IMG/VR virus record: IMGVR_UViG_3300029448_008344
Location: 1-32,512 of that record
From: a virus
Reading direction: 5' to 3' (one strand)
DNA: 32,512 bases
Shown here piece by piece: positions 8,440 through 32,512 of the stretch (the stretch's first letter is position 1; each line of letters opens with the position of its first letter). A model generated the notes under the pieces. The model was not told where the DNA came from and did no database searches. It saw only the letters and a list, made by a program, of their open reading frames with translations. The position numbers and the translations under genes were made by a program.

Positions 8440-9240
8440 ATGGACTTAAATGCAATCCGCGCAAAGCTGGATACGCTAAATAATAGCGGCCAGCAAAAAG
8501 AAAAAACAGATTACTCCAAGATTTTTTGGAAACCGGAATTAGGTAAACAGACGATTCGTATCGTTCCTTCTGCCTATGATCCTGCTTTTCCGTTTAAGGA
8601 ATTAAAATTCCATTACGGTGTAGGAAAATATCCGATGGTAGCTTTATCAAATTTCGGTAAGCAAGACCCTATTGAAGAGTTTGTAAAAGAACTTAGAAAG
8701 ACGAACGATAAAGACAATTGGTCATTATCAGGTAAACTTAACCCTAAAACTAGAATCTTTGCTCCTGTAGTAGTTAGAGGAGAAGAAGATAAAGGTGTTA
8801 GATTATGGGGATTCGGTATTACTATCTATAAAGCATTACTTGCTTTAGCAGAAGATGAAGATATCGGAGACTTTACAGACGTTATTAATGGATGGGATAT
8901 GGTAGTAGAGCAACAAGCTGGTAACCCTTACCCGGAGACTAGTGTTCGAATTAAACCAAAACAAACTCCTTTATCTGATAATAATGATTTAGTAGATACT
9001 TGGTTAAAGACTCAACCTAATCCAATAGAAGTACATACAGAGTATGATTATGACTTCATTAAGAAACAATTACAAGGTTATTTAAATCCTGGAGCTGAAG
9101 AAAGTACCACAGCTACTAAGGATACAGGTACAACTCTGCCAGAAAGCTTAGGTCAACAAAAAACTGACTTTACTTTGGAAACAGCTACGGCTGGCAACAA
9201 AGACACAGTTAGTAAATTTGATGACTTATTTAATGAATAA
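8440..9240 (+). CDS. Single-stranded DNA-binding protein, T4 gp32-like
   Basis: 266 aa. Coats single-stranded DNA during replication and recombination. The N-terminal segment MDLNAIRAKLDTLNN is followed by a core with aromatic and basic residues (KIFWKPELGKQTIRIVP, then FKELKFHYGVG) typical of gp32-type OB folds. The C-terminus is acidic (SKFDDLFNE), as in SSBs that recruit partner proteins through the tail. There is no cysteine at all, so the zinc finger of T4 gp32 is missing; this is also seen in other distant gp32 homologs. It is coupled by TAATG to the UvsX gene. The 5' end of the gene uses GC-richer codons than the rest. Confidence 0.8.
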   Translation: MDLNAIRAKLDTLNNSGQQKEKTDYSKIFWKPELGKQTIRIVPSAYDPAFPFKELKFHYGVGKYPMVALSNFGKQDPIEEFVKELRKTNDKDNWSLSGKLNPKTRIFAPVVVRGEEDKGVRLWGFGITIYKALLALAEDEDIGDFTDVINGWDMVVEQQAGNPYPETSVRIKPKQTPLSDNNDLVDTWLKTQPNPIEVHTEYDYDFIKKQLQGYLNPGAEESTTATKDTGTTLPESLGQQKTDFTLETATAGNKDTVSKFDDLFNE

Positions 9241-10310
9241 TGGCGAAAAAACAAACAACTCAAGAGAAAGCGACCGCTGCAGTACGCAAGTCGTTTAATT
9301 TAGGTAATTTTAAGAAAAAGAAAGGATTTGCTAATGCTTCTGTGAAGTTTAAAGAGCAAGGTTGGATACCTTTATCTAAAGCTTTTCAAGATATTACATC
9401 TCTACCAGGCATCCCTACAGGACATATAACCTTACTTAGAGGTCATTCTGATACGGGTAAAACTACTGCTTTAATCGAAGCGGCAGTAAATGCTCAAAAG
9501 ATGGGTATCTTACCTGTTTTTATTGTAACTGAGATGAAATGGTCTTGGGAACATGCTAAAGAAATGGGATTAGAGTTTGAAGAAGTAAAAGATGATAAAG
9601 GTACAGTTATTGATTACGAAGGTCATTTCTTATACGCAGATAGAGGACAGCTTAATACTATTGAAGAAGTAGCAGTTTATATTGCTGATCTTATGGATGA
9701 ACAAGCTAAAGGTAACTTACCTTATGATATGTGTTTCTTCTGGGATAGTATTGGTTCTGTTCCTTGTGATCTTTCAGTACGTTCTAATAAGAATAATAAT
9801 GAATGGAATGCAGGAGCTATGTCTACTCAGTTTGGTAATAATCTTAACCAAAAGATTCTATTGTCTAGAAAAGAAAACTCTCCATACTGTAATACTTTAG
9901 TAGCTATTAATAAGGTATGGACGATGAAACCTGAATCCCCTATGGGACAACCTAAATTACAGAATAAAGGAGGTATGTCTATGTGGTACGATGCTACATT
10001 AGTAGTTACATTTGGTAATATTACTAATCCAGGTACCTCTAAAATAAAAGCTATAAAAGCTGGTATGCAAGTAGAGTTCGCTAAACGTACTAATGTACAG
10101 GTAGAAAAGAACCATATTGGAGGAGTACAATCAAGAGGTAGAATAGTAATGACACCTCATGGATTTATTCCCGATGATAAAAGAGAAATCGATAAATATA
10201 AGGATGAACATAAAGAACACTGGTTAAAATTAGTTGGATCAGTAGATTTTGATTTGATAGAAGAAGGAGATTTAGAAGAAACTCCTATCACTCCTAATAT
10301 TTTAGATTAA
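9240..10310 (+). CDS. uvsX: UvsX/RecA-type recombinase
   Basis: 356 aa ATPase that forms filaments on single-stranded DNA and drives strand exchange and recombination-dependent replication. Walker A is GHSDTGKT at 68-75, followed by a hydrophobic helix. A Walker-B-like strand ending in FFWD is near residue 168. Before it come EMKWSWEHA-type residues as in UvsX. The N-terminus is basic (KKKK at 24-28) and the C-terminus acidic (EEGDLEETP), giving the polar layout expected for filament-forming recombinases. Position directly after gp32-like SSB and before the exonuclease matches T4-type replication clusters. Both ends share TAATG junctions with neighbours. Confidence 0.85.
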   Translation: MAKKQTTQEKATAAVRKSFNLGNFKKKKGFANASVKFKEQGWIPLSKAFQDITSLPGIPTGHITLLRGHSDTGKTTALIEAAVNAQKMGILPVFIVTEMKWSWEHAKEMGLEFEEVKDDKGTVIDYEGHFLYADRGQLNTIEEVAVYIADLMDEQAKGNLPYDMCFFWDSIGSVPCDLSVRSNKNNNEWNAGAMSTQFGNNLNQKILLSRKENSPYCNTLVAINKVWTMKPESPMGQPKLQNKGGMSMWYDATLVVTFGNITNPGTSKIKAIKAGMQVEFAKRTNVQVEKNHIGGVQSRGRIVMTPHGFIPDDKREIDKYKDEHKEHWLKLVGSVDFDLIEEGDLEETPITPNILD

Positions 10311-22540: not shown

Positions 22541-22699
22541 ATGTCAAAATCATCAAATAAACAAAAAGTTACGCAGTTAAAAGAATGGTTAAAGACTATT
22601 AAAGGTGGTGACACCTCTTCTAATAAAACTCGTAAATTTTCTAAAGCAGATCATTACAAAAAAGTAAATAATAGATATGGCAACAAAAAAAATAATTAA
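22541..22699 (+). CDS. Small basic hypothetical protein (52 aa)
   Basis: An ATG at 22541 opens a 52-codon frame ending at TAA 22697-22699, overlapping the thioredoxin start by 23 bases. The product is strongly basic and hydrophilic, Lys/Asn/Ser-rich, with a helical LKEWLKTIKGG segment near residues 13-23 and no cysteine. I support it because it is the first frame after a promoter-like pair, fills an otherwise empty 188-base gap and is positioned for coupling to thioredoxin. No function is visible; a small nucleic-acid-binding or host-takeover peptide is possible but unproven. Confidence 0.5.
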   Translation: MSKSSNKQKVTQLKEWLKTIKGGDTSSNKTRKFSKADHYKKVNNRYGNKKNN

Positions 22700-22943
22700 A
22701 TTTTACGCCGAATGGTGTGGACCATGTAAGATATACGGTAAAACTTGGGATAAAACAATACCTACGTATTCCGATCAAGTAGATTTTCATTCTATTGATA
22801 TAGATAAAGATAAATCAGGACTAGCTAATAAATACAAAGTAGACTCTATCCCAGCAACCGTATTAATACGAGAAAATGGTACTAGTTTAATTAAAGAAGG
22901 CCGATTATCTAAAGAACAATTAACCGAATTAATTTTATCATAA
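22677..22943 (+). CDS. Thioredoxin
   Basis: 88 aa, slightly shorter than E. coli thioredoxin. The active site is WCGPC (C14 and C17) after the FYAEW strand. The cis-proline loop is SIPAT near 58-62, and the closing strand TVLIRENG with a C-terminal helix completes the fold. No signal peptide, so it is cytoplasmic. The most likely job is to re-reduce the CLSC pair of the phage ribonucleotide reductase at 14876. It is joined by TAATG to the next small gene. Confidence 0.9.
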   Translation: MATKKIIKFYAEWCGPCKIYGKTWDKTIPTYSDQVDFHSIDIDKDKSGLANKYKVDSIPATVLIRENGTSLIKEGRLSKEQLTELILS

Positions 22944-23288: not shown

Positions 23289-24083
23289 ATGGCAAAGAAT
23301 GTTGTAATTAGTCTTTCAGGAGGGATGGACTCCTCAACTTTACTACTTAGATGCTTATCAGAGTATGATAATGTAACTGCGATATCTTTTGATTACGGTC
23401 AAAAACATAGAGTAGAATTAAAAAGAGCTCAATCGTTAGTAAATTATTTAAATGATAATGGTCAAAGTATTAAATATCAAGTAATTAAACTAGATGGATT
23501 AGTTAATTTACTAAACTCAGCTTTAACAGAAGGAGGAGAAGATGTACCGGAAGGTCATTATGAAGAGGATAATATGAAAGCTACAGTAGTACCTAATAGA
23601 AACAAAATATTTGCTTCTTTAGTACAAGCAGTAGCTCTATCAGAAGCAATGGCTAATGGAAACGATACTGATATCGCATTAGGTATTCACGCTGGTGATC
23701 ATGCAATTTATCCTGATTGTAGACAAGAGTTTAGAGATGCTGACGATGCTGCCTTTAGAATAGGTAATTGGGAAGCAGATAAGGTAGGGTATTTTACTCC
23801 TTACTTGAAAACTGATAAATTAGGAATATTAAAAGATGGACAAGTACTTATCAAAGAACTCGGAATCCAATTCGATGAGGTATACAAAAGAACAAATACC
23901 TCCTACAAACCCTTTCCTTCAGGTAACTCAGACTACAAGTCGGCTTCATCGGTGGAAAGGATTGAAGCATTTATTGATCTTGGTGTTGATGATCCCGTTC
24001 AGTATGAAGACGAAACTGGACCGGTTGATTACTCAATTGCGAAGGCACATGTTGAAAAACTCTTAGCTGAATTTTCTGGATGA
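23289..24083 (+). CDS. queC: QueC-like 7-cyano-7-deazaguanine synthase lacking the zinc cysteines
   Basis: 264 aa. QueC converts 7-carboxy-7-deazaguanine to preQ0 using ATP and ammonia. The PP-loop SGGMDSS is at 10-16, followed by FDYGQKHRVEL near 38-47 and VVPNRNKIFASLVQAVALSEA near 98-118, with LGIHAGDHAIYPDCR near 137, all typical QueC landmarks. Canonical QueC ends in four zinc-binding cysteines (a TCY plus CxxCxxC). Here the matching positions are S205, D215, S218 and S221, so none remain. The PP-loop is intact, so an active but altered enzyme is likely. The last 200 bases use GC-richer codons than the rest of the gene. It overlaps the next gene by four bases. QueD and QueE lie 5.5 kb downstream. 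Confidence 0.85.
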   Translation: MAKNVVISLSGGMDSSTLLLRCLSEYDNVTAISFDYGQKHRVELKRAQSLVNYLNDNGQSIKYQVIKLDGLVNLLNSALTEGGEDVPEGHYEEDNMKATVVPNRNKIFASLVQAVALSEAMANGNDTDIALGIHAGDHAIYPDCRQEFRDADDAAFRIGNWEADKVGYFTPYLKTDKLGILKDGQVLIKELGIQFDEVYKRTNTSYKPFPSGNSDYKSASSVERIEAFIDLGVDDPVQYEDETGPVDYSIAKAHVEKLLAEFSG

Positions 24084-24409
24084 AAAAGTTAATTTTTATA
24101 CTTTCATTAGTAGTATCTTCTCTTACCTTCGGGCAAGAGGAGGTACCTTATGAAGTACTAGGTACTTGGTATAATCTTGATCAGGAAGTATTAACTATTA
24201 GTAGAGAAAACGAAAAAATTGTATTTGTTAGAAAAAGTAAAACTGCAATTTTAGCTACCGGTGAGATTACGATGGTAGATGGGCGTATGCAGATTAACAG
24301 GTATGATACCGATGATAGTTATAGATTAGCTTGGTTTATAGGTAACGATACTATGGCAATCAATAAACCTCGTTCTATAAGAGCTTGGTTATGGATTAAG
24401 TTACAATGA
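24080..24409 (+). CDS. Small secreted protein with signal peptide (109 aa)
   Basis: The N-terminus MKKLIFILSLVVSSLTFGQ is a clear Sec signal: two lysines, a 13-residue hydrophobic core and a cleavage region ending FGQ|EE, a style very common in Flavobacteriia. There is no lipobox cysteine, so it is likely released to the periplasm. The mature part (about 90 aa) has alternating strands with a VLGTWYNLDQEVLTI start, resembling lipocalin-like or DUF-type small beta barrels of Bacteroidota; I cannot name it. It sits in an ATGA chain between QueC and the kinase gene. A periplasmic phage protein could act in superinfection exclusion or lysis, but this is speculation. Confidence 0.7.
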   Translation: MKKLIFILSLVVSSLTFGQEEVPYEVLGTWYNLDQEVLTISRENEKIVFVRKSKTAILATGEITMVDGRMQINRYDTDDSYRLAWFIGNDTMAINKPRSIRAWLWIKLQ

Positions 24410-24855
24410 TATACTGGTTTACAGGACAACCAGGAGCTGGTAAGACTACTTTAGCTAATATGCTAAAAGAAGAGTTAGAAAAAATTAGAAACTCTGTTTA
24501 TAAAGTTTACAGAATAGACGGAGATGATATGAGAGAATTATTTTCTAATAAAGATTATTCTATTAAAGGTAGGGTAGATAACGTAAGTACAGCTCAAAGA
24601 ATAGCTCATTATTTGCATAATCAAGAAAAAGACGTAGTAGTATCTTTAGTTTCTCCCTATATAGATCAAAGAGAGGATTTTAAAAAATTATTAGGAGATA
24701 ATATTAAGGAAATATATGTATATACCTCAGATAAAAGGGATAGAGACCAATTTAAATCGATTGCTTATACCCCTCCTCAATCTGACTATATAGAGATCGA
24801 TACTACATTTGATAATCCAATACAATCACTTAAAAAGATATTAGAATATATTTAA
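24406..24855 (+). CDS. Adenylylsulfate kinase-like P-loop kinase
   Basis: 149 aa, shorter than the ~200-aa APS kinase CysC. Walker A is GQPGAGKTT at 7-15, followed by LANMLKEEL. The RIDGDDMRELF segment near 36-46 matches the DGDNxR motif of APS kinases. STAQRIAHYL near 65 and VSLVSPYIDQRE near 80 follow the APS-kinase order (where VSFISPY is typical). The usual lid region with FIEV is replaced by IYVYTSDKRDR. It phosphorylates a small molecule, possibly adenylylsulfate or another nucleotide-linked substrate. It overlaps the secreted-protein gene (ATGA) and precedes radical SAM, HAD and nucleotidyltransferase genes. The family is likely, the substrate open. Confidence 0.7.
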   Translation: MIYWFTGQPGAGKTTLANMLKEELEKIRNSVYKVYRIDGDDMRELFSNKDYSIKGRVDNVSTAQRIAHYLHNQEKDVVVSLVSPYIDQREDFKKLLGDNIKEIYVYTSDKRDRDQFKSIAYTPPQSDYIEIDTTFDNPIQSLKKILEYI

Positions 24856-24863
24856 ATTAAAGG

Positions 24864-25907
24864 ATGTTTGATAAAAATGAATATATTTGTTCAGCACCAT
24901 TTAATTATACAGAAGTTTTTGATGATAGACAGTATTTATGCTGCCCTTCTTGGTTACCAGTAGATGTATGGGATGGTAAGTCTATCAAATCTAGTTTTTT
25001 TAGCAATAAAGCTCAGGAAGTAAGAGAGTCTATAATTGATGGTTCGTATAAGTATTGCGATGAAAAGCAATGCCCCTACTTATCAGGTTTAAAGAATAAT
25101 ACTTATTCCGGAAAGTTTGTAAAAAAGACTGATAAATCTATAGAGTTTTTTAGAAATAAAAATGAAATAGAGACAGTAAATTTTTGCTTTGATAGAAGCT
25201 GTAATCTTCAATGTCCATCTTGTAGAAGTGAATTAATTAATTATTACGGTAAAGATAGAGAACAAGTTGAAGATAAGTTAAATCAAGTAAAAGAAGAAAT
25301 ATCACCAACAGTCAAAAGATTATATCTAACCGGTACTGCAGATCCTTTCTACAGTAAATCGTTTAGACAATTTTTAGAAACTTTAGATCCTAATAAATTT
25401 ACTAAATTAGAGTCTATTCATTTACATACTAATGGAAGCTTATGGAATGAAGCAATGTGGAAAAGAGTAAAAGCTATTCATCCCTATGTTAATAGTTGCG
25501 AAGTATCAATCGATGCAGCAACTAAAGAAACATATGAAACCAAAACTAGAATAGGAGGTAAATGGGACGTATTAGTAGATAACTTAGAATTTATTACTAA
25601 AATAAAAACTATTAAATTTTTTAGTTTTTCATTTGTAGTTCAAGATAGTAATTTTAAAGAAATGAAATTATTTTACGATATGATTACTAAATATATGAAA
25701 GGAAGTAAATCTAAATTTGATGTATTTTACAATTCTATTGTAAACTGGGGAACTTATACTAATGAAGAGTATTTAGAAAAAAACGTAACCCTTCCATCCC
25801 ACAAAGACCATAAAGAGTTTTTAGAAATATTAGATAAAATGAAAAATTTACCGTTTTTTACTAATAATTTTAATCACTTATTTACTAAAAAAAGAAATGT
25901 AATTTAA
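24864..25907 (+). CDS. Radical SAM enzyme with N-terminal SPASM-like cysteine region
   Basis: 347 aa. The CxxxCxxC cluster motif is C113, C117 and C120 (SCNLQCPSC), which binds the SAM [4Fe-4S]. LYLTGTADPF near 152 takes the place of the usual GGE motif. SCEVSIDAATKETYE near 212 is the radical SAM SIDG-type strand. Unusually, a cysteine-rich region precedes the core: C9, C26, C27, C65 and C70, starting CSAPF and including LCCPSW, which looks like the SPASM auxiliary-cluster region moved to the N-terminus. It likely modifies a peptide, sugar or lipid by radical chemistry. A ferredoxin that could supply electrons is encoded at 31928. Substrate unknown. Confidence 0.8.
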   Translation: MFDKNEYICSAPFNYTEVFDDRQYLCCPSWLPVDVWDGKSIKSSFFSNKAQEVRESIIDGSYKYCDEKQCPYLSGLKNNTYSGKFVKKTDKSIEFFRNKNEIETVNFCFDRSCNLQCPSCRSELINYYGKDREQVEDKLNQVKEEISPTVKRLYLTGTADPFYSKSFRQFLETLDPNKFTKLESIHLHTNGSLWNEAMWKRVKAIHPYVNSCEVSIDAATKETYETKTRIGGKWDVLVDNLEFITKIKTIKFFSFSFVVQDSNFKEMKLFYDMITKYMKGSKSKFDVFYNSIVNWGTYTNEEYLEKNVTLPSHKDHKEFLEILDKMKNLPFFTNNFNHLFTKKRNVI

Positions 25908-26246
25908 ATGGATAAAAAAAATACTTATTTTGTAGATATAGATGGAACAATATTTATATATAGGAAGTTCGAAACATATGAAACTTCAGAAGCTCAAGTT
26001 ATAAAAAGTACAAAGCAATACTTACAACAAGTAAACGATCAAGGTCATATGATAATACTTACTACGGCAAGGCCTGAATACTTAAGAGAACATACTGAAA
26101 GTGAACTTGCAAAAAATGGTATACCTTATCATAAATTAATAATGCAAATTGAAAGAGGACCTAGGTACCTTATAAACGATATGGATCCTAAAAACCCAGG
26201 TCAAAGAGCAATTGCAATAAATACAAGAAGAGATGAAGGAATATAG
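25908..26246 (+). CDS. HAD-superfamily phosphatase (112 aa)
   Basis: The first HAD motif is FVDIDGTI with D10 and D12. The second is ILTTARP with T52/T53, and the acidic motif INDMDP occurs near 89. With no cap domain and only about 110 aa it is a minimal HAD, close to phosphatases found in capsule or sugar-phosphate pathways. It would dephosphorylate a small phosphate ester. It starts one base after the radical SAM stop and overlaps the nucleotidyltransferase by 14 bases, so the genes are translated together. Confidence 0.8.
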   Translation: MDKKNTYFVDIDGTIFIYRKFETYETSEAQVIKSTKQYLQQVNDQGHMIILTTARPEYLREHTESELAKNGIPYHKLIMQIERGPRYLINDMDPKNPGQRAIAINTRRDEGI

Positions 26247-26586
26247 TTTATTTATAGGTAGATGGCAACCTTGGCATGAAGGTCATAGGTGGTTAATTGA
26301 TCAAAGATTAAAAGAAGGTAAGAACGTTTGGGTAGCTATAAGAGACGTAGAACCAAATGAAAAACAACCTTGGACTCCTCATGAAGTTCTCATGAACTTA
26401 TCTGAAGAGTTAAAAGACCTTTTAGAAGAAGGTAGAATAAAAATCACAATAGTACCTGATATAGAATCTATAAATTATGGTAGAGGAGTAGGATATGAAA
26501 TTATTGAACATGTACCTCCTGAGCAAGTAAAAGAAATATCTGCTACAAAGATAAGAAAACAAATGAGACAAGATGGCAAGTTATAA
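26233..26586 (+). CDS. Nucleotidyltransferase, HxGH family (NMN adenylyltransferase-like)
   Basis: 117 aa. The N-terminal FIGRWQPWHEGH carries HxGH (H15, H18) and the IGRWQPxHxGH form found in NMN/phosphopantetheine-type adenylyltransferases. The C-terminal ISATKIR at 102-108 is the second signature (ISxTxIR). A VAIRDVEPNEKQPWTPHE segment near 34-51 covers the substrate-side loop. It is shorter than usual NMN adenylyltransferases, so the true substrate may be a small phosphate. Together with the kinase and HAD genes upstream it looks like a nucleotide-activation and recycling set. It overlaps the DUF2061 gene by 14 bases. Confidence 0.75.
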   Translation: MKEYSLFIGRWQPWHEGHRWLIDQRLKEGKNVWVAIRDVEPNEKQPWTPHEVLMNLSEELKDLLEEGRIKITIVPDIESINYGRGVGYEIIEHVPPEQVKEISATKIRKQMRQDGKL

Positions 26587-26764
26587 GACTACAATAGTAA
26601 AGACTCTTATATGGAGGGTAATAGCTACTTCTATTACTATCTTAGCAGGATGGGCAGTTTCCGGAAATTGGAAATTTGGATTAGCAGTAGGAGGTATAGA
26701 TACAGTATTAAAAACCATAGGATACTTTAGTTACGAAAGACTATGGATAAAATATAACAAATGA
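26573..26764 (+). CDS. DUF2061 membrane protein (63 aa)
   Basis: The sequence contains TLIWRVIATSITILAGWAVSG and GGIDTVLKTIGYFSYERLW, which match the DUF2061 pattern: two short membrane helices and a conserved GGxDTxxKTxxYxxxERxW end. It should sit in the inner membrane with its C-terminus facing the cytoplasm. Function of the family is unknown. It overlaps the nucleotidyltransferase gene, and the next small gene starts four bases before its stop, so it belongs to the same translational unit. Confidence 0.85.
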   Translation: MASYKTTIVKTLIWRVIATSITILAGWAVSGNWKFGLAVGGIDTVLKTIGYFSYERLWIKYNK

Positions 26765-26919
26765 TTAAAATAAATGTAAAAGAAGGTGATACTATATTAG
26801 TAGGTCGCTTTAAAAATAAACGAACTAAAGTTAAGAGTATAGAATATGATGAGTTTGGTATGCCAATAATAAACGGAAGACCTGCTTGTACTTTTAGATT
26901 AGTTGCTAACCCTAGATAA
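26761..26919 (+). CDS. Small hypothetical protein, beta-rich (52 aa)
   Basis: An ATG overlapping the DUF2061 stop (ATGA) opens 52 codons ending at TAA 26917-26919, which in turn overlaps the next start (TAATG). The product is basic with alternating strand-like segments (INVKEGDTILVGRF, TKVKSIEYDEFGMPIING, CTFRLV), a layout like small SH3/OB-type barrels. The overlap at both ends is strong support for a real gene even though it is short. No function assigned. Confidence 0.7.
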   Translation: MIKINVKEGDTILVGRFKNKRTKVKSIEYDEFGMPIINGRPACTFRLVANPR

Positions 26920-28571
26920 TGATCAAATTAGGTATATCAGCTTTTTATCATGATTCAGCTGCAGCACTTATAATCAACGATAAAGTAATAGCAGCTGTAG
27001 AAGAAGAAAGATTTACAGGTATAAAGCATGATTATTCTTTTCCAATCAATTCTATAAACTATTTACTTTCAATACTAAATAAAACTATAAATAAAATAGA
27101 TGAAGTTCATTGGTATGAAAGTCCTGAAAAGAAACACGATAGAGTTCGCACAACGTTTGCAAAAAAACCTATAAGGACGTTTTTTCTCAATCGTAAATAT
27201 AAAAAAGCAAAAAAACTACAAGATCCTAAAACTATTTTAGAATCGATAGGATATACTGGCAAGATTATTTACCACGATCACCATAATAGCCATGCCGCTT
27301 TTTCCTACTATACTAGTAATTTTGATAATTCAGCTATACTTACTGTTGATGGAGTTGGTGAATGGGAAACTACTACTATTTCAGTCGGGGATGGTAATAC
27401 TATTGAGAAAAAAATATCTATAGATTTTCCTAATTCATTAGGTATGTTATATTCTACTATAACTGCATACTTAGGGTTCAAACCTAATGAAGGAGAATAT
27501 AAGGTTATGGGGTTAGCACCTTATGGAGATCCAAGAGTTTATACTGATAAATTGTTAGAAGTATTTACTAATAGTTCTAATAAATTTTATATAAATCAGT
27601 CTCCTTTTACATGGGAATATTCTGATAAAATAATGTATAATAAAAATTTATTAAAAATTCTTAATATACAACCTAGACTACCTAATGAAGAACTTAAGCA
27701 GCAACATAAGGATTTAGCAGCCGGCTTACAAAAGGTGTATGAAATTCAATTTACTAAACTCTTAAATACTGCTAAAAATATTACTGGTAGTAAAAATATA
27801 TGTATAGGAGGTGGATGTGCTTATAATGGAGTAGCAAATACTTTAGCATATAAATACTTTGACTCAGTTTACATACCATTTGCTCCATCAGATGCTGGTT
27901 CAGCTATTGGAGCATGTTTAAATAAGAAAACTTATATTAATCCTTATCTTGGACCTGAATTTACTGATATACAGATTAAGAAGCAAATTGATAGCTTTAA
28001 GTCAAAAATATTCATATTTAAATTATCTGAAGATAAATTAATAAATAAAGTTGCTAAGTTAATAAACGGTGGGTGTATAGTAGCATGGTTTCAAGGTAGA
28101 ATGGAATTTGGAGCAAGAGCATTAGGAAATAGAAGTATATTAGCTACTCCAATTGATCCTCGTATGAGAGAAAAACTAAATTATGTCATTAAAAAAAGAG
28201 AAGGATTTAGACCATTTGCTCCTTCAGTAACAGAAGAAAGATATAAACAGTTTTTTGACTCCAAGGAAACTTCACCTTATATGTCTAAAGTTGTTAAAGT
28301 AAGAACCAATCTTATACCTTCAGCAACTCATATAGATGAAACTTGCAGAATTCAGACAGTTTCTAAAAAACAAAATTTAAAATTTCATAAACTTATTACT
28401 GAGATAGGAAGTCAAACAGGAATTCCGGTTGTATTAAATACCTCTTTCAACTTAAAAGATCAAACTATAACCTTAAGCCCATTACAAGCTATCAAAAGAT
28501 ATTTAAATTCTTCTATAGATTTTTTAGTAATTAATAACTACTTAATACAGAAAAAAAATGAAAATAATTAA
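26919..28571 (+). CDS. Carbamoyltransferase, NodU/CmcH/TobZ family, copy 2
   Basis: 550 aa with canonical motifs. The N-terminal GISAFYHDSAAALI and EEERFTGIKHD match the family start. HHNSHA near 124 binds the metal, ILTVDGVGEWET near 141 is the phosphate loop, EYKVMGLAPYGDP near 192 and IGGGCAYNGVAN near 292 follow. The C-terminal half has GRMEFGARALGNRSIL near 395 and EGFRPFAPSV near 430, and ends with VVLNTSFNL. It transfers carbamoyl groups via carbamoyl-adenylate to a hydroxyl on a sugar or related acceptor. It is a clear paralog of 19157-20785, but closer to cellular NodU-type enzymes, so the two may have separate origins. A tiny basic gene and a 2OG oxygenase follow without gap. Confidence 0.9.
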   Translation: MIKLGISAFYHDSAAALIINDKVIAAVEEERFTGIKHDYSFPINSINYLLSILNKTINKIDEVHWYESPEKKHDRVRTTFAKKPIRTFFLNRKYKKAKKLQDPKTILESIGYTGKIIYHDHHNSHAAFSYYTSNFDNSAILTVDGVGEWETTTISVGDGNTIEKKISIDFPNSLGMLYSTITAYLGFKPNEGEYKVMGLAPYGDPRVYTDKLLEVFTNSSNKFYINQSPFTWEYSDKIMYNKNLLKILNIQPRLPNEELKQQHKDLAAGLQKVYEIQFTKLLNTAKNITGSKNICIGGGCAYNGVANTLAYKYFDSVYIPFAPSDAGSAIGACLNKKTYINPYLGPEFTDIQIKKQIDSFKSKIFIFKLSEDKLINKVAKLINGGCIVAWFQGRMEFGARALGNRSILATPIDPRMREKLNYVIKKREGFRPFAPSVTEERYKQFFDSKETSPYMSKVVKVRTNLIPSATHIDETCRIQTVSKKQNLKFHKLITEIGSQTGIPVVLNTSFNLKDQTITLSPLQAIKRYLNSSIDFLVINNYLIQKKNENN

Positions 28572-28674
28572 TTGGATTAAAGATAAAATTCGTACATTTA
28601 AGAGAGAAAAAGATTTTAAAAAAAGACTTAAAGAAATGAAAAAACGAGATCCTTTTACTTATAAGAATCTTTAA
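28558..28674 (+). CDS. Tiny basic protein (38 aa)
   Basis: A 38-codon frame from ATG 28558 to TAA 28672-28674. It begins 14 bases inside the end of the carbamoyltransferase and its stop overlaps the next start as TAATG. Half of the residues are charged and most are Lys or Arg (FKREKDFKKRLKEMKKRDPF), predicting one amphipathic basic helix after a short WIKDKI start. The exact fit between two overlapping genes supports expression. A nucleic-acid- or membrane-surface-binding peptide is possible; no family is claimed. Confidence 0.55.
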   Translation: MKIINWIKDKIRTFKREKDFKKRLKEMKKRDPFTYKNL

Positions 28675-29213
28675 TGATGATTATAGAAATTGAAAACTTT
28701 CTAAGTAATAATAAATGTGAAAGTTTGATAAATAAATATGTTAATAAAGTAACTCCGATTTCTTCAGGAGAAAGAATAGATAGAGATGGTAATCTAATAG
28801 TCCAGGATATAAGAGATTATCACAGAAAAACTGATTGGGTAATATTTAGAGATAAGCTTTTAAGAGATCAAATACTAAACGCACTGGTTATGAATTCTAA
28901 TTTAGTATTAGAAACTATTAAAAAAGAAGAATCATTTCAATTTTTGAGATATAAAGAAACTGGTCATTTTACTTGGCATCATGATTTAACTGAAAGTAAA
29001 GAATTTATGACTGCAATACTTCTTCTTAACGATAACTTTACAGGAGGAGATCTTTTATACAAACAAAATAAAAAAATAGTTAACTTTAAAAGAACAGCAG
29101 GAACTTTATTATTATTTCCAGCAACACTTCAACATAAAGTTTCAGAAATAACTAAAGGAACAAGGTATTCTATAGTAACATGGATATATAAAAAACCTAA
29201 TTTAATATTTTAG
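28674..29213 (+). CDS. 2OG-Fe(II) dioxygenase, prolyl-4-hydroxylase-like
   Basis: 179 aa double-stranded beta-helix enzyme. The iron triad is H102-x-D104 (WHHD) and H154 (LQHKV), and R164 (GTRYSI) would bind 2-oxoglutarate. The LLLNDNFTGGDLLY segment between them is typical of the P4H-like 2OG-FeII_Oxy families, in which a substrate carbon is hydroxylated with O2 and 2-oxoglutarate. It would act in the cytoplasm on protein, nucleic acid or a small molecule. It follows the second carbamoyltransferase directly. A hydroxyl created here could be the acceptor for sugar or carbamoyl groups. Confidence 0.85.
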   Translation: MMIIEIENFLSNNKCESLINKYVNKVTPISSGERIDRDGNLIVQDIRDYHRKTDWVIFRDKLLRDQILNALVMNSNLVLETIKKEESFQFLRYKETGHFTWHHDLTESKEFMTAILLLNDNFTGGDLLYKQNKKIVNFKRTAGTLLLFPATLQHKVSEITKGTRYSIVTWIYKKPNLIF

Positions 29214-29216
29214 AAA

Positions 29217-29246
29217 GTTGTTTAGTTTAAAGTTTTTTCTTATATT
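29217..29246 (+). promoter_or_regulatory. Promoter-like pair GTTG-N20-TATATT upstream of queDE operon
   Basis: GTTG at 29217-29220, four bases after the preceding stop, and TATATT at 29241-29246 after 20 bases. The first gene of the operon starts 47 bases later, giving the longest leader of the five sites; the leader ends in ACACGCAAAATG and shows no clear Shine-Dalgarno. Confidence 0.6.
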
Positions 29247-29293
29247 TATTAATATGACTATAGTGTCGTAGCACCACTTTAAAAACACGCAAA

Positions 29294-29569
29294 ATGGTAA
29301 ATGTAAATTTGAAAGAAGTCGAGAGTGATCTATATAACGTAGAGTCTCGCAAAGAACTAAACGATGAATATCTCTATAATCGTCGTACTAATATTCCACT
29401 ACCCAAAGAACCGTTAAATTATCCAGATGCTAGAAAGCACCAGATAGTTTCATTTATTAAGTCTGCTATCCGTATTACAGGGTATGTTTTTATACCGTTT
29501 AATTTGGTAATTGCAGCAATTCTTCTTATCTTATCAGAAATAGTAGGTATAATCGAAGAATTAGTATAA
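29294..29569 (+). CDS. Small membrane-anchored hypothetical protein (91 aa)
   Basis: Residues 1-50 are polar and charged (EVESDLYNVESRKELNDEYLYNRR), and 58-88 hold one or two closely spaced hydrophobic helices (IRITGYVFIPFNLVIAAILLILSEIVGII). It is likely an inner-membrane protein with a cytoplasmic N-terminal tail. It is the first gene after a promoter-like site and shares a TAATG junction with queD. No family recognised; a link to deazaguanine synthesis rests only on operon position. Confidence 0.65.
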   Translation: MVNVNLKEVESDLYNVESRKELNDEYLYNRRTNIPLPKEPLNYPDARKHQIVSFIKSAIRITGYVFIPFNLVIAAILLILSEIVGIIEELV

Positions 29570-30036
29570 TGGCAAATTATCAATCAACAAAAATATTTGA
29601 CGGATTCTCAACTGTATTTCGTCAATGGAAAGCTGAAACTACTCACTGTAGGTTTTTGCATGGATACGGTATATCTTTTAAACTATGGTTTGAAGGTGAT
29701 CTAGACGATAGAAACTGGGTATGGGATTTCGGAGGTATGAAAAGAGCAAAAGGTAAGATAGATGGTATGTCTGCTAAAGAGTGGATGGATTATATGTTTG
29801 ACCATACTTTTGTAGTAGCTGAAGATGATCCTTTCTTAGAATCGTTTAAAAAAATGGATGAAGCAGGTGTAGCTCAAATAAGAGTAGTACCAGCAACAGG
29901 AGCAGAAAGATTTGCTCAATTTATTTACGATAAACTTAATCCTTTTATAGCAGAAGAAACTGGAGGAAGAGTTAAGGTAGCTAAAGTAGAATTTAGAGAA
30001 CACGGTAAAAACTCAGCAATATATGAGCCTAGGTAG
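29569..30036 (+). CDS. queD: QueD-like 6-carboxytetrahydropterin synthase, variant zinc site
   Basis: 155 aa. QueD turns 7,8-dihydroneopterin triphosphate into 6-carboxytetrahydropterin, the second step to preQ0. The catalytic cysteine C27 and H31 are in THCRFLHGYG, D78-H79 (FDHTF) form the proton relay, and E144 (REHGKNSAIY) would hold the pterin. The canonical zinc site is one N-terminal His plus HGH. Here HGH is HGY (Y33), and the N-terminal His is not visible (FSTVFRQW). Two of three zinc ligands thus appear changed while the rest of the active site is kept, suggesting a subfamily with different metal binding rather than decay. It overlaps queE by 14 bases. Confidence 0.85.
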   Translation: MANYQSTKIFDGFSTVFRQWKAETTHCRFLHGYGISFKLWFEGDLDDRNWVWDFGGMKRAKGKIDGMSAKEWMDYMFDHTFVVAEDDPFLESFKKMDEAGVAQIRVVPATGAERFAQFIYDKLNPFIAEETGGRVKVAKVEFREHGKNSAIYEPR

Positions 30037-30802
30037 AATAGAAGATTACGATAAAAATTTACCTATTGTAGAAATCTATACTGCTGTTCAATCTGAAGGT
30101 TCAAGGGCTGGTTATCCTACCGTAGTCATTAGAACTACCGGATGTACTCATAGATGTTACTTCGGTGAAGGAGGCTGGTGTGATAGTTGGTATACTTCAA
30201 TACATCCTGAAAAAGGTAAATATACTTTTAACGATATTATTAAAGCATATGATGATAATCCTCATATATCAGAGATGATGTTGACTGGAGGTTCTCCTTC
30301 AATGCATAAGAAACTTGTAAATGAATTAACACATCTAGCAAATGAACGAGACATTTTTATCACGATGGAAAACGAGGGTAGCCATTTTCTTCCTACCGAT
30401 TACCCTATTGATTTGCTTTCTATTAGTCCCAAATTTAGTAATTCAATACCTGTCTTGGGGGTGGAAACGCCTGAAGGCAAAATTACGGATGAAAGGATGA
30501 TTAAGCAGCATAATAAATTTAGGCTTAATTATCCTGCAATTAAAGAAAGTATAGCATATCATTCAGATTATCATCTTAAACCTGTATGGGACGGTAGAGA
30601 TGAAAAAGCTTTAGATGAGATTATGGACTGTATAGATCAGTTAGATGCACCTAAAGATAAAGTTTGGTTTATGCCAGCTGGTGATACTAGAGAAGCATTA
30701 CAAAAGTCTTATCCAGTTATGTTTGATTGGGTAAGAGATAATGGGTATCGTTTAACCTGGAGGCCTCATATTATAGCTTTCCAAGATCAGAGAGAGGTTT
30801 AA
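30023..30802 (+). CDS. queE: QueE-like 7-carboxy-7-deazaguanine synthase, unusual cysteine spacing
   Basis: 259 aa radical SAM enzyme for the third step to preQ0, contracting 6-carboxytetrahydropterin to 7-carboxy-7-deazaguanine. The opening VEIYTAVQSEGSRAGYPTV is typical of QueE. The cluster cysteines are C41, C45 and C53, giving CX3CX7C instead of the usual CX3CX2C; the insert is FGEGG before WCD. MLTGGSP near 85-91 is the SAM-binding GGE equivalent and LLSISPKF near 130 the QueE SPK motif. The start at 30023 lies in the end of queD. A segment around 30340-30530 uses ATT/CTT-type codons unlike the ATA/TTA-rich flanks. The ferredoxin at 31928 could reduce its cluster. Confidence 0.88.
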   Translation: MSLGRIEDYDKNLPIVEIYTAVQSEGSRAGYPTVVIRTTGCTHRCYFGEGGWCDSWYTSIHPEKGKYTFNDIIKAYDDNPHISEMMLTGGSPSMHKKLVNELTHLANERDIFITMENEGSHFLPTDYPIDLLSISPKFSNSIPVLGVETPEGKITDERMIKQHNKFRLNYPAIKESIAYHSDYHLKPVWDGRDEKALDEIMDCIDQLDAPKDKVWFMPAGDTREALQKSYPVMFDWVRDNGYRLTWRPHIIAFQDQREV

Positions 30803-30963
30803 TGAAGGAAACGTGGAGCGAAATAGAAGAACATCTATCGGTTATACACGGTAATTTAGGTATATGCTGTCAGGAGTACTGTGATGCTCCTAATGCTATA
30901 CATAGTTTAGAAAAGTTAACGGAATTATTAATTAAAATTAGAGAAAAAGATGGCACAGTTTAG
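30802..30963 (+). CDS. Small hypothetical protein (53 aa)
   Basis: An ATG overlapping the queE stop (TAATG) opens 53 codons ending at TAG 30961-30963, overlapping the next gene by 14 bases. The product is acidic and helical, with an N-terminal WSEIEEHLSVIHG helix, a GICCQEYC segment with three cysteines and a final amphipathic LEKLTELLIKIREK helix. The CCxxxC group could bind metal, but no known pattern is complete. The overlaps at both ends support a real gene. No family assigned. Confidence 0.6.
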   Translation: MKETWSEIEEHLSVIHGNLGICCQEYCDAPNAIHSLEKLTELLIKIREKDGTV

Positions 30964-31162
30964 AGTTATTACTATGCTTCGTAAAATATTCGAGGCACAA
31001 AGAGAAAAAGCTTTGATGACTTTAGAGCTTCTTACTGAAAATCCAGCAGGTATCGGAGATCATTCGACTGAAGATTTTTATAAAAATGCTGAAGAAGCAA
31101 TCAGAGCATTAGCAGAGTCTGAAGATGTTTTAGAGACTATCGAAAGACATTTTGCGGAATGA
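30950..31162 (+). CDS. Small helical hypothetical protein (70 aa)
   Basis: An all-helical-looking, mildly acidic protein. Helices can be drawn at about 9-30 (LRKIFEAQREKALMTLELLTE) and 40-68 (DFYKNAEEAIRALAESEDVLETIERHF), joined by a short NPAGIGDH turn. No motif or membrane segment. It overlaps the previous small gene by 14 bases and the next by four (ATGA), so it belongs to the queDE operon. Function unknown. Confidence 0.65.
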   Translation: MAQFRVITMLRKIFEAQREKALMTLELLTENPAGIGDHSTEDFYKNAEEAIRALAESEDVLETIERHFAE

Positions 31163-31401
31163 AACTACCAGTAATTAGAAAATTAAGTGACTTCACACTG
31201 TCACAGCTAAACGACTCAGTAGCGGTATTAGAAACTGTTACTGAATCAAGAGGAGTTACTGAAGAAGAATTAGATGTATTAGGAGAGGTTTTATCTAACC
31301 TTTATGGAGCAGTCGAAGTAAGAGAATCCATAATGAGAGGAAAGAGCAGAACTGATGCTTTAAATAATTTTATGAAAAAAGTTACATCAATAGGTAAATG
31401 A
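31159..31401 (+). CDS. Small protein resembling a Flavobacteriia family (DUF6952-like)
   Basis: 80 aa. The start MKLPVIRKLSDF and the blocks TEEELDVLGEVLSNLYGAVEV and ALNNFMKKV closely resemble, from memory, a small family in Flavobacteriia genomes (DUF6952) of unknown function often near redox genes; this recall needs a profile search. The protein looks entirely helical and cytoplasmic. ATGA overlaps join it to both neighbours. If the match holds, it is one of the clearest single pointers to a Bacteroidota host. Confidence 0.65.
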   Translation: MKLPVIRKLSDFTLSQLNDSVAVLETVTESRGVTEEELDVLGEVLSNLYGAVEVRESIMRGKSRTDALNNFMKKVTSIGK

Positions 31402-31931
31402 AAGGAGTTTTTACTAGTTACAATTTTTTCAATGAAACTGTCTATAATGAAATACTTACAGATATAAATCAAACATTAAAAGAAGAATTAAATTTGTTTG
31501 ATAATAAAGGTTGGGGAGAAACAGTTGTGGAATATAGTAAACCTATTAAAATAAGACAGTTAAGTAGTAATGAAAAAAATTACCATTCTATTAGACAATC
31601 TATCTATGAGTTACTAGGTAGATTCCCAGATGGTATATATTATTACCTTTGGGGTCCAGGATCGTATATTCCTTGGCATTCAGATGAAATTTATTCTTCT
31701 GCTTTCAGTATCTATATGAATGAAAACTGGAACTATGAAGACGGAGGTTTATTTCAGTACTATGCTAATAATAAAGTAGAAACTATAATACCAGAAGCTA
31801 ATACTGCTGTTTTACAAACTGGTAATGTTCCTCATAGTACAACTATACTATCAAAACATGCTCCTATACGTAAATCTATTCAAGTTTGGTTTGAAAAAAG
31901 TAATAGTATACCTAAAAAATCATTACTATGA
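31398..31931 (+). CDS. 2OG-Fe(II) dioxygenase-like protein, second copy
   Basis: 177 aa. The iron triad is H94-x-D96 (IPWHSDEIY) and H146 (VPHSTTIL), with R158 (IRKSIQVWF) for 2-oxoglutarate. [16 protein letters not shown] between them is the typical loop of phage and bacterial 2OG-FeII_Oxy proteins. It is not closely similar to the oxygenase at 28674, so the two probably have different substrates. It lies between the small helical genes and the ferredoxin, with ATGA overlaps on both sides. A hydroxylase of protein, base or sugar is likely; substrate unknown. Confidence 0.8.
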
Positions 31932-32236
31932 GTTATATTATAGGTAAACCTTGTGAAGCTACTTGCGATACAGCATGCGTTTCGGTTTGTCCAGTAGATT
32001 GTATTCATGGACCTATAGATATAGAAGGAGCAGGTGCGGAAGTACCTGGTATGACAATAGGTCCGAAAGATATGTTATATATCAATCCAGATGAGTGCAT
32101 TGACTGTGGAGCTTGTCTTCCAGAATGCCCTGTTGAAGCTATTTATGAAGATGAAGAAGAGGCTATTGAAAAAGATGGTACTGATGAGTACGTAAAAAGG
32201 AATTATAAATTTTTTGGATTGGAGTATAATGGTTAG
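31928..32236 (+). CDS. Two-cluster ferredoxin (7Fe/8Fe type)
   Basis: 102 aa. The first cluster region has cysteines at 9, 13, 17, 21 and 25, spaced exactly every four residues, ending [14 protein letters not shown] as in seven-iron ferredoxins. The second has C57-x2-C60-x2-C63-x3-C67 ([13 protein letters not shown]), a classical [4Fe-4S] site. An insert of about 25 residues separates them. It is a cytoplasmic electron carrier. In this genome it could feed QueE, the radical SAM enzyme at 24864 or another host-derived reductase. ATGA overlap with the oxygenase gene; the next gene starts eight bases before its stop. Confidence 0.9.
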
Positions 32237-32512
32237 AATGTATTTAACATGGTTATTAGTATTAATTACATCTTGTATATATGCACAAGATCTGAGAAAA
32301 CCTACAACTCAAGTACAGCTTAGAGAAGAAGTTATAATAAAAACTGATATTTTTACAGTTACTTATTCCGAAACTAAAGAACAACCTCTATCACTTACTT
32401 ACAGATCGTCAAATAGAGTTAAAAATGTAGACAGAGGATCTATGGATTTTCATACTGAGGACCAGTACCACACTTCAGATAAACATGATTATTATGCAAA
32501 CGTATGGGATAA
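32229..32512 (+). CDS. Secreted protein, probable DNA/RNA non-specific endonuclease, 3' partial
   Basis: 94 codons are visible before the right edge. The N-terminus [20 protein letters not shown] is a Sec signal with a Flavobacteriia-style YAQ|D end; the cysteine at 16 could in principle be a lipobox but the context (ITSC) is weak. The mature part has [21 protein letters not shown], then RGSMDF, and ends with [13 protein letters not shown], which matches the region just before the KGH catalytic motif of NUC1-type DNA/RNA non-specific endonucleases. The catalytic His lies beyond the window. A secreted nuclease could salvage host DNA or protect against other phages. The family is a likely but unconfirmed match. 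Confidence 0.6.

Follow-up and report, generated by a model that had tools for sequence, protein, structure and literature searches.

Variant queC, queD and queE genes in a truncated Immutovirus-like phage genome and their probable place in a deazaguanine DNA-modification pathway

Does a phage that carries the genes for making 7-cyano-7-deazaguanine (preQ0) also carry those needed to place a deazaguanine in its DNA? The question is raised by the virus record IMGVR_UViG_3300029448_008344, analyzed here over its whole length of 32,512 bp (hereafter the window), in which queC, queD and queE are found and neither folE nor the base-insertion gene dpdA is seen. A first-pass annotation had proposed a “partial or alternative” deazaguanine DNA-modification pathway with the insertion gene elsewhere in the genome. 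All genes discussed are on the + strand of the window. The queC gene (23289..24083) encodes a 264-amino-acid zinc-less variant of 7-cyano-7-deazaguanine synthase (PF06508, E=1.3e-38; phrog_1550, E=1.5e-45), whose top Foldseek matches are the QueC proteins of B. subtilis and Erwinia. The queD gene (29569..30036) encodes a 6-carboxytetrahydropterin synthase with HGY in place of HGH (phrog_2389, E=2e-42; PF01242, E=3e-14), and queE (30023..30802) a 7-carboxy-7-deazaguanine synthase with the radical S-adenosylmethionine (SAM) motif CX3CX7C (phrog_2076, E=8e-52; PDB 5tgs, B. subtilis QueE, E=2.6e-9). Open reading frames and profile matches thus agree with the first-pass assignment of the three genes, which together form the set of preQ0 synthesis genes required for a phage 7-deazaguanine DNA-modification system. 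As all three proteins are divergent, none of them reaches the NCBIfam equivalog cut-offs.

The window covers part of the genome of an Immutovirus-like Flavobacteria phage. Its nearest isolate is Flavobacterium phage vB_FspM_immuto, an Immutovirus with a complete genome of 160 kb (NC_055915), with which the polymerase, recombinase, exonuclease, helicase and ribonucleotide reductase genes of the window are collinear. The replicative helicases share 78% protein identity, and the QueC, QueD and QueE proteins span 69-80% (QueC 69%, QueE 80%). Immuto has the same gene set in the order queC...queD, queE, with the same structural and replication neighbors, but its queC and queD are separated by tRNA genes, and its listed annotation shows no carbamoyltransferase cassette. 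Unlike the window, it is complete, so that folE, dpdA and queF are visible. We consider it very likely that the phage behind the window carries the complete standard preQ0-to-preQ1 (7-aminomethyl-7-deazaguanine) DNA-modification pathway, with insertion by DpdA.

The absence of folE and dpdA from the window was readily reproduced. A six-frame search with profiles built from relatives found no DpdA/tRNA-guanine transglycosylase (TGT), FolE, QueF or PurN-like formyltransferase in the window, while the same four profiles recovered all four proteins in one relative (L002). This absence is uninformative, because the record measures 32,512 bp against 160 kb in the complete relative; its right end falls 1.7 kb past queE, and the empty TGT search of the record itself is explained by this truncation. 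The immuto folE begins some 1 kb past queE and is followed by dpdA, a PurN-like formyltransferase gene, a kinase gene and queF, with folE, dpdA, the formyltransferase gene and queF all at most 5.6 kb from queE. We surveyed the gene neighborhoods on the 80 contigs with the closest QueE and the 80 with the closest QueC, and found the same gene block as in immuto. In relatives of at least 105 kb, folE, a MazG-like gene, dpdA, a PurN-like formyltransferase gene and queF usually lie downstream of queE. The spacing between queC and queE varied from 1.6 to 12 kb. DpdA was present in all 11 relatives of at least 105 kb and in immuto, and QueF in eight of these 11 and in immuto. When type-A DpdA was defined by more than 55% identity to that of immuto (about 35% for type B), all 37 loci with a type-A DpdA also carried FolE.

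The edge of the window itself could be crossed with two contigs. The first, L001, shows 90% DNA identity over window positions 27114-32512 and extends 1.4 kb beyond, where it reaches the genes for a nuclease and a TonB receptor. The second, L004, is syntenic across the edge, with a QueE 96% identical to that of the window and a TonB gene 91% identical. Past the TonB gene, L004 continues with PRT, folE and a MazG-like gene, and breaks off in a type-A DpdA (81% identical), of which it encodes the initial 54 residues. An exact search of viral contigs for the DNA pattern at the right end of the window found no overlapping contig. Taken together, the gene order in relatives makes it highly probable that folE and dpdA are missing only through the end of the contig and would be sited just past it; by the distances in L004, folE would lie about 5-6 kb and dpdA about 7-8 kb beyond the edge. 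A partial or alternative pathway is thus not supported, since FolE and DpdA belong to the same gene block in long relatives; the prediction of a deazaguanine DNA-modification gene set with its insertion gene elsewhere is supported. A genuinely incomplete pathway, in a genome devoid of DpdA whose que genes would raise host preQ0 for tRNA queuosine, is consistent with the lack of TGT/DpdA in 32.5 kb, but is very improbable given the long relatives and the L004 bridge to dpdA; moreover, QueA, QueG and QueH were not found in such viruses by Hutinet et al. (PMC6884629).

A different partner enzyme has also to be considered. At 56 loci of the survey, the arrangement is of type B: dpdA, about 35% identical, lies upstream of queC, and QueF is absent. 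Some type-B phages have a QueC 82-90% identical to that of the window, so modules have been exchanged, and a window phage of this kind, with no QueF or formyltransferase, would have preQ0 or 7-amido-7-deazaguanine (ADG) as its DNA base instead of a preQ1 derivative. We regard this as improbable. The type-B dpdA lies about 1 kb upstream of queC, where the window has no DpdA but a thioredoxin-like gene (22677..22943; PF00085, E=4e-17) that marks the type-A arrangement (34 of 37 type-A loci, none of 56 type-B loci) and a further gene at 22943. In addition, the contigs nearest to the window in DNA and in QueE sequence are of type A or untyped. For the close relatives that do have type-B loci (e.g., L046, L067 and L077), a different DNA base is predicted, either preQ0 or ADG.

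The proteins encoded by the relatives' block were then examined for the capacities that the pathway requires. Their DpdA has no Pfam hit and falls in phrog_19058, annotated as “unknown function”. Its AlphaFold model (60 sequences; predicted local distance difference test score 95) matched tRNA-guanine transglycosylases in 50 of 50 among the Foldseek matches listed against the PDB, and its invariant or near-invariant residues include HLLGC and DTSNP blocks; the protein is thus predicted to have a TGT fold. The relatives' QueF contains PF14819 plus PF14489 and keeps the ESKSxK NADPH motif and the CxVTxQPD motif with the catalytic Cys and Asp in 28 of 28 sequences, and should therefore be a preQ0 reductase giving preQ1. 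CSHH is kept in FolE (113/113), and NxHP in the PurN-like formyltransferase (35/35). In the proposed pathway, FolE, encoded past the edge, would convert GTP to dihydroneopterin triphosphate, which QueD, QueE and QueC of the window would turn into preQ0. Past the edge again, QueF would reduce preQ0 to preQ1, DpdA would put the deazaguanine in place of guanine in the phage DNA, and the PurN-like protein would probably formylate the preQ1 amine. The end product is probably a formylated preQ1 base, as judged from gene content, and should shield phage DNA from guanine-recognizing restriction enzymes. A dPreQ1 formyltransferase was reportedly named DpdN by Cui et al. in 2023, and fdPreQ1 is said to belong to the same work.

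Alternatively, the deazaguanine could be made as free deaza-dGTP, with the phage DNA polymerase rather than DpdA building it into the DNA. MazG-like and kinase-like genes do occur in the same block of relatives. We rejected this route as very unlikely, since the block encodes a conserved TGT-fold protein; in phage CAjan, knock-out of dpdA abolished both modification and restriction resistance (PMC6884629). Insertion by DpdA is also the route of the preQ0/G+ systems of Hutinet et al. 2019 (CAjan/9g, Rosebush; PMC6884629), in which FolE, QueD, QueE and QueC together with a TGT-like DpdA modify DNA guanine. By comparison with those systems, the DpdA of the immuto group belongs to a divergent family (phrog_19058) that was unannotated there. 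Cellulophaga phage phiST (NC_020842) resembles the window in its QueE (74% identical, with CX3CX7C) and its HGY-type QueD, and encodes FolE and a MazG-like protein as well as a DpdA from the immuto-group family. It differs in having no annotated queC and no queF or formyltransferase gene in the 29-kb stretch examined.

Three points weigh against a complete preQ1 pathway in this phage. For this particular genome, the content beyond the edge is deduced from relatives; modules recombine within the group, as illustrated by the type-B loci, in which QueF is lacking and a 35%-identical DpdA is encoded upstream of queC; and the formyltransferase step leans on the DpdN reportedly named by Cui et al. 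2023. The DNA-modification reading for Immutovirus is already known. According to PMC11500664, the immuto genome was flagged earlier for modified-nucleotide genes by Hoetzinger et al. 2021. In this respect the window gives a real but ordinary, truncated view of a known system.

The new part of the finding, and the part worth following, is the variant form of QueC, QueD and QueE themselves. QueC motifs were compared in 140 phage proteins, of which 133 were immuto-like and seven came from other phages. SGGxDS was found in 140/140, YxQxHxxE in 136/140, VPxRN in 139/140 and YPDC in 137/140, and the window protein has all four. By contrast, the zinc motif C(x)8CxxCxxC was found in none of the 133 immuto-like proteins vs all seven of the others. 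In a representative alignment, the four cysteine columns read S/D/S/S in 26 of 26 zinc-less sequences and C in 17 of 17 canonical ones, and all four are replaced in the window. Canonical QueC (PF06508 cluster 1; Libby et al. 2026, PMC13329287) thus shares the four other motifs and the QueC fold with the window protein but retains the zinc motif, which every aligned zinc-less member has as S/D/S/S; QueC of CAjan and of the Rosebush-type phage Lars keeps it as well. The tyrosine adjoining the first cysteine position is kept in zinc-less QueC and matches the tyrosine shown to be essential in E. coli QueC. Libby et al. treat the zinc motif as a QueC hallmark. The replacement stretch TSY...SDYxSASS is nearly invariant, and therefore under selection. 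Zinc-less QueC sequences form one clade (tree support 0.85).

Comparable changes were found in the two other enzymes. Canonical QueD (PTPS) has FSAxH and HGH zinc histidines, with the catalytic Cys in CxxxHGH. In the 134 relatives of the window QueD, HC..xHGY was found throughout, HGH and the FSAxH zinc histidine in none, and the catalytic Cys was kept. Other residues, for example the conserved THC histidine, might take over from the lost ones. QueE carries CTHRC[YFW]FG[ED]GGWC (CX3CX7C) in 141/141 phage relatives including phiST, so that the second and third cluster cysteines are five residues further apart in all of them. The canonical spacing CX3CX2C (CX14CX2C in Burkholderia) does not fit the phage QueE, and most bacterial QueE relatives also have a stretched spacing (CX3CX8C, CX3CX7C or similar). 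A literature search found nothing specific on this stretched cysteine motif. From these motifs, QueC, QueD and QueE appear to form a distinct lineage, in which the canonical zinc ligands were lost from QueC and QueD and the [4Fe-4S]-binding motif of QueE was stretched.

Whether a zinc-less QueC can still make preQ0 was addressed through the bacteria that carry one. A scan of 84,980 genomes revealed 21 loci. Isolate contigs account for nine, from Cysteiniphilum (four), Facilibium, Fangia, Legionella gresilensis and two Thiotrichales. Eight of the isolate genomes were checked further, and in these the zinc-less QueC was the only PF06508 protein of QueC length, the remaining matches being frames of 358-629 amino acids that align to the first 55-70 positions only; seven of the eight also carry the variant QueE and QueD. 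Among ten bacterial genomes with zinc-less QueC, each contains TGT, QueD and QueF, the eight checked for QueA have it, and nine have no second full-length QueC that we could find. In a separate check of 112 Legionellaceae genomes, zinc-less QueC was found in three, as the sole QueC in two and beside a canonical copy in the third, and the zinc motif was kept in 17 of the 17 canonical copies read. L. gresilensis pairs its zinc-less QueC with a QueE of ordinary motif (GCPLRCQYCD). The three Legionella genomes (L242, L243 and L247-L252) have two TGT-family matches each, one full-length and weaker-scoring, the other partial in a frame of about 300 amino acids, which lies by queA in L. gresilensis.

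Since QueF needs preQ0, and zinc-less QueC stands as the sole QueC beside TGT and QueF, the simplest genetic reading of these genomes is that it still makes preQ0. The opposite view is that it is no longer a preQ0 synthase, stopping at ADG or having another role like QatC/Cap9, while host QueC supplies preQ0. The loss of all four zinc cysteines favors this view, as does the loss of activity reported by Libby et al. (PMC13329287) in altered paralogues, along with their naming of the zinc motif as a hallmark. It is nevertheless unlikely, as zinc-less QueC retains the essential Tyr and every other catalytic motif, the stretch that replaces the cysteines hardly varies, nine bacterial genomes with TGT, QueD and QueF have this protein as their only full-length QueC, and L. 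gresilensis has a canonical-motif QueE alongside it. Retained preQ0 synthesis has its own weak points: bacteria could salvage preQ0 instead of making it, and draft genomes may miss a second QueC copy. On balance, we think it likely that a separate lineage of preQ0 enzymes, with a QueC working without zinc, a rebuilt QueD metal site and a stretched QueE motif, occurs both in phages of marine Flavobacteria and in a few gammaproteobacteria. In the latter it would have taken the place of canonical QueC (in L. gresilensis and a second Legionellaceae genome) or of QueC, QueD and QueE together (in Cysteiniphilum, Facilibium, Fangia and Thiotrichales). A zinc site called a hallmark of QueC is yet cleanly absent throughout a large clade, and bacteria with zinc-less QueC as their only QueC beside TGT and QueF represent an apparent natural swap test. 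The role of zinc in QueC is thus directly testable by complementation. Annotation by family cut-off will miss the variant QueC, QueD and QueE proteins.

The neighboring genes were as described in the first-pass annotation, with domain matches to two N-acetylglucosamine-type glycosyltransferases, two carbamoyltransferases and two 2-oxoglutarate (2OG)-Fe(II) oxygenases. Its division of the que genes into two operons was not demonstrated: all lie on the + strand, with a cassette of variable content between queC and queD. This cassette (24406..29213) has domain matches to APS-kinase-like, radical SAM, HAD, nucleotidyltransferase, carbamoyltransferase (26919-28571) and 2OG-Fe(II) oxygenase (28674-29213) proteins. 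Its radical SAM protein at 24864-25907, the second such protein besides QueE, is NF033640-like, below cut-off. Cassette content differs between relatives, a carbamoyltransferase being next to queC in 12 of 37 type-A and none of 56 type-B loci. Relatives of the carbamoyltransferase (144 phage records) are mostly from cyanophages, of which there are none among 50 phage records with a QueE match. A core function of the carbamoyltransferase, oxygenases and glycosyltransferases in decorating the deazaguanine was rejected on two grounds, the optional nature of the cassette and the mostly cyanophage origin of the carbamoyltransferase relatives. More plausibly, the cassette is a set of genes of its own, open to exchange and serving metabolism or surface modification.

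Downstream of queE, a ferredoxin gene (31928..32236; Fer4 matches) has counterparts at 12 of 37 type-A loci, and directly follows queE in L002. In L004, a ferredoxin-reductase-like open reading frame (8556-9269) takes the position directly after queE. Both could supply electrons to the radical SAM enzyme QueE. The last gene of the window (32214..32512) is the start of an Endonuclease_NS gene for a secreted-type nuclease, cut by the window end and complete in L001 (5095-5748; PF01223, E=2e-20). Beside it, just past window position 32512, contigs of the group carry a TonB-dependent receptor gene (L001 5902-6831, L004 11385-13952, L089 14841-16673), whose product has 855 amino acids in L004 and a detected Plug domain in L001. 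An open reading frame resembling S1/P1 nuclease was also found near these genes in L004. The TonB and nuclease genes are perhaps a secreted-nuclease/uptake cassette, or a receptor copy affecting superinfection.

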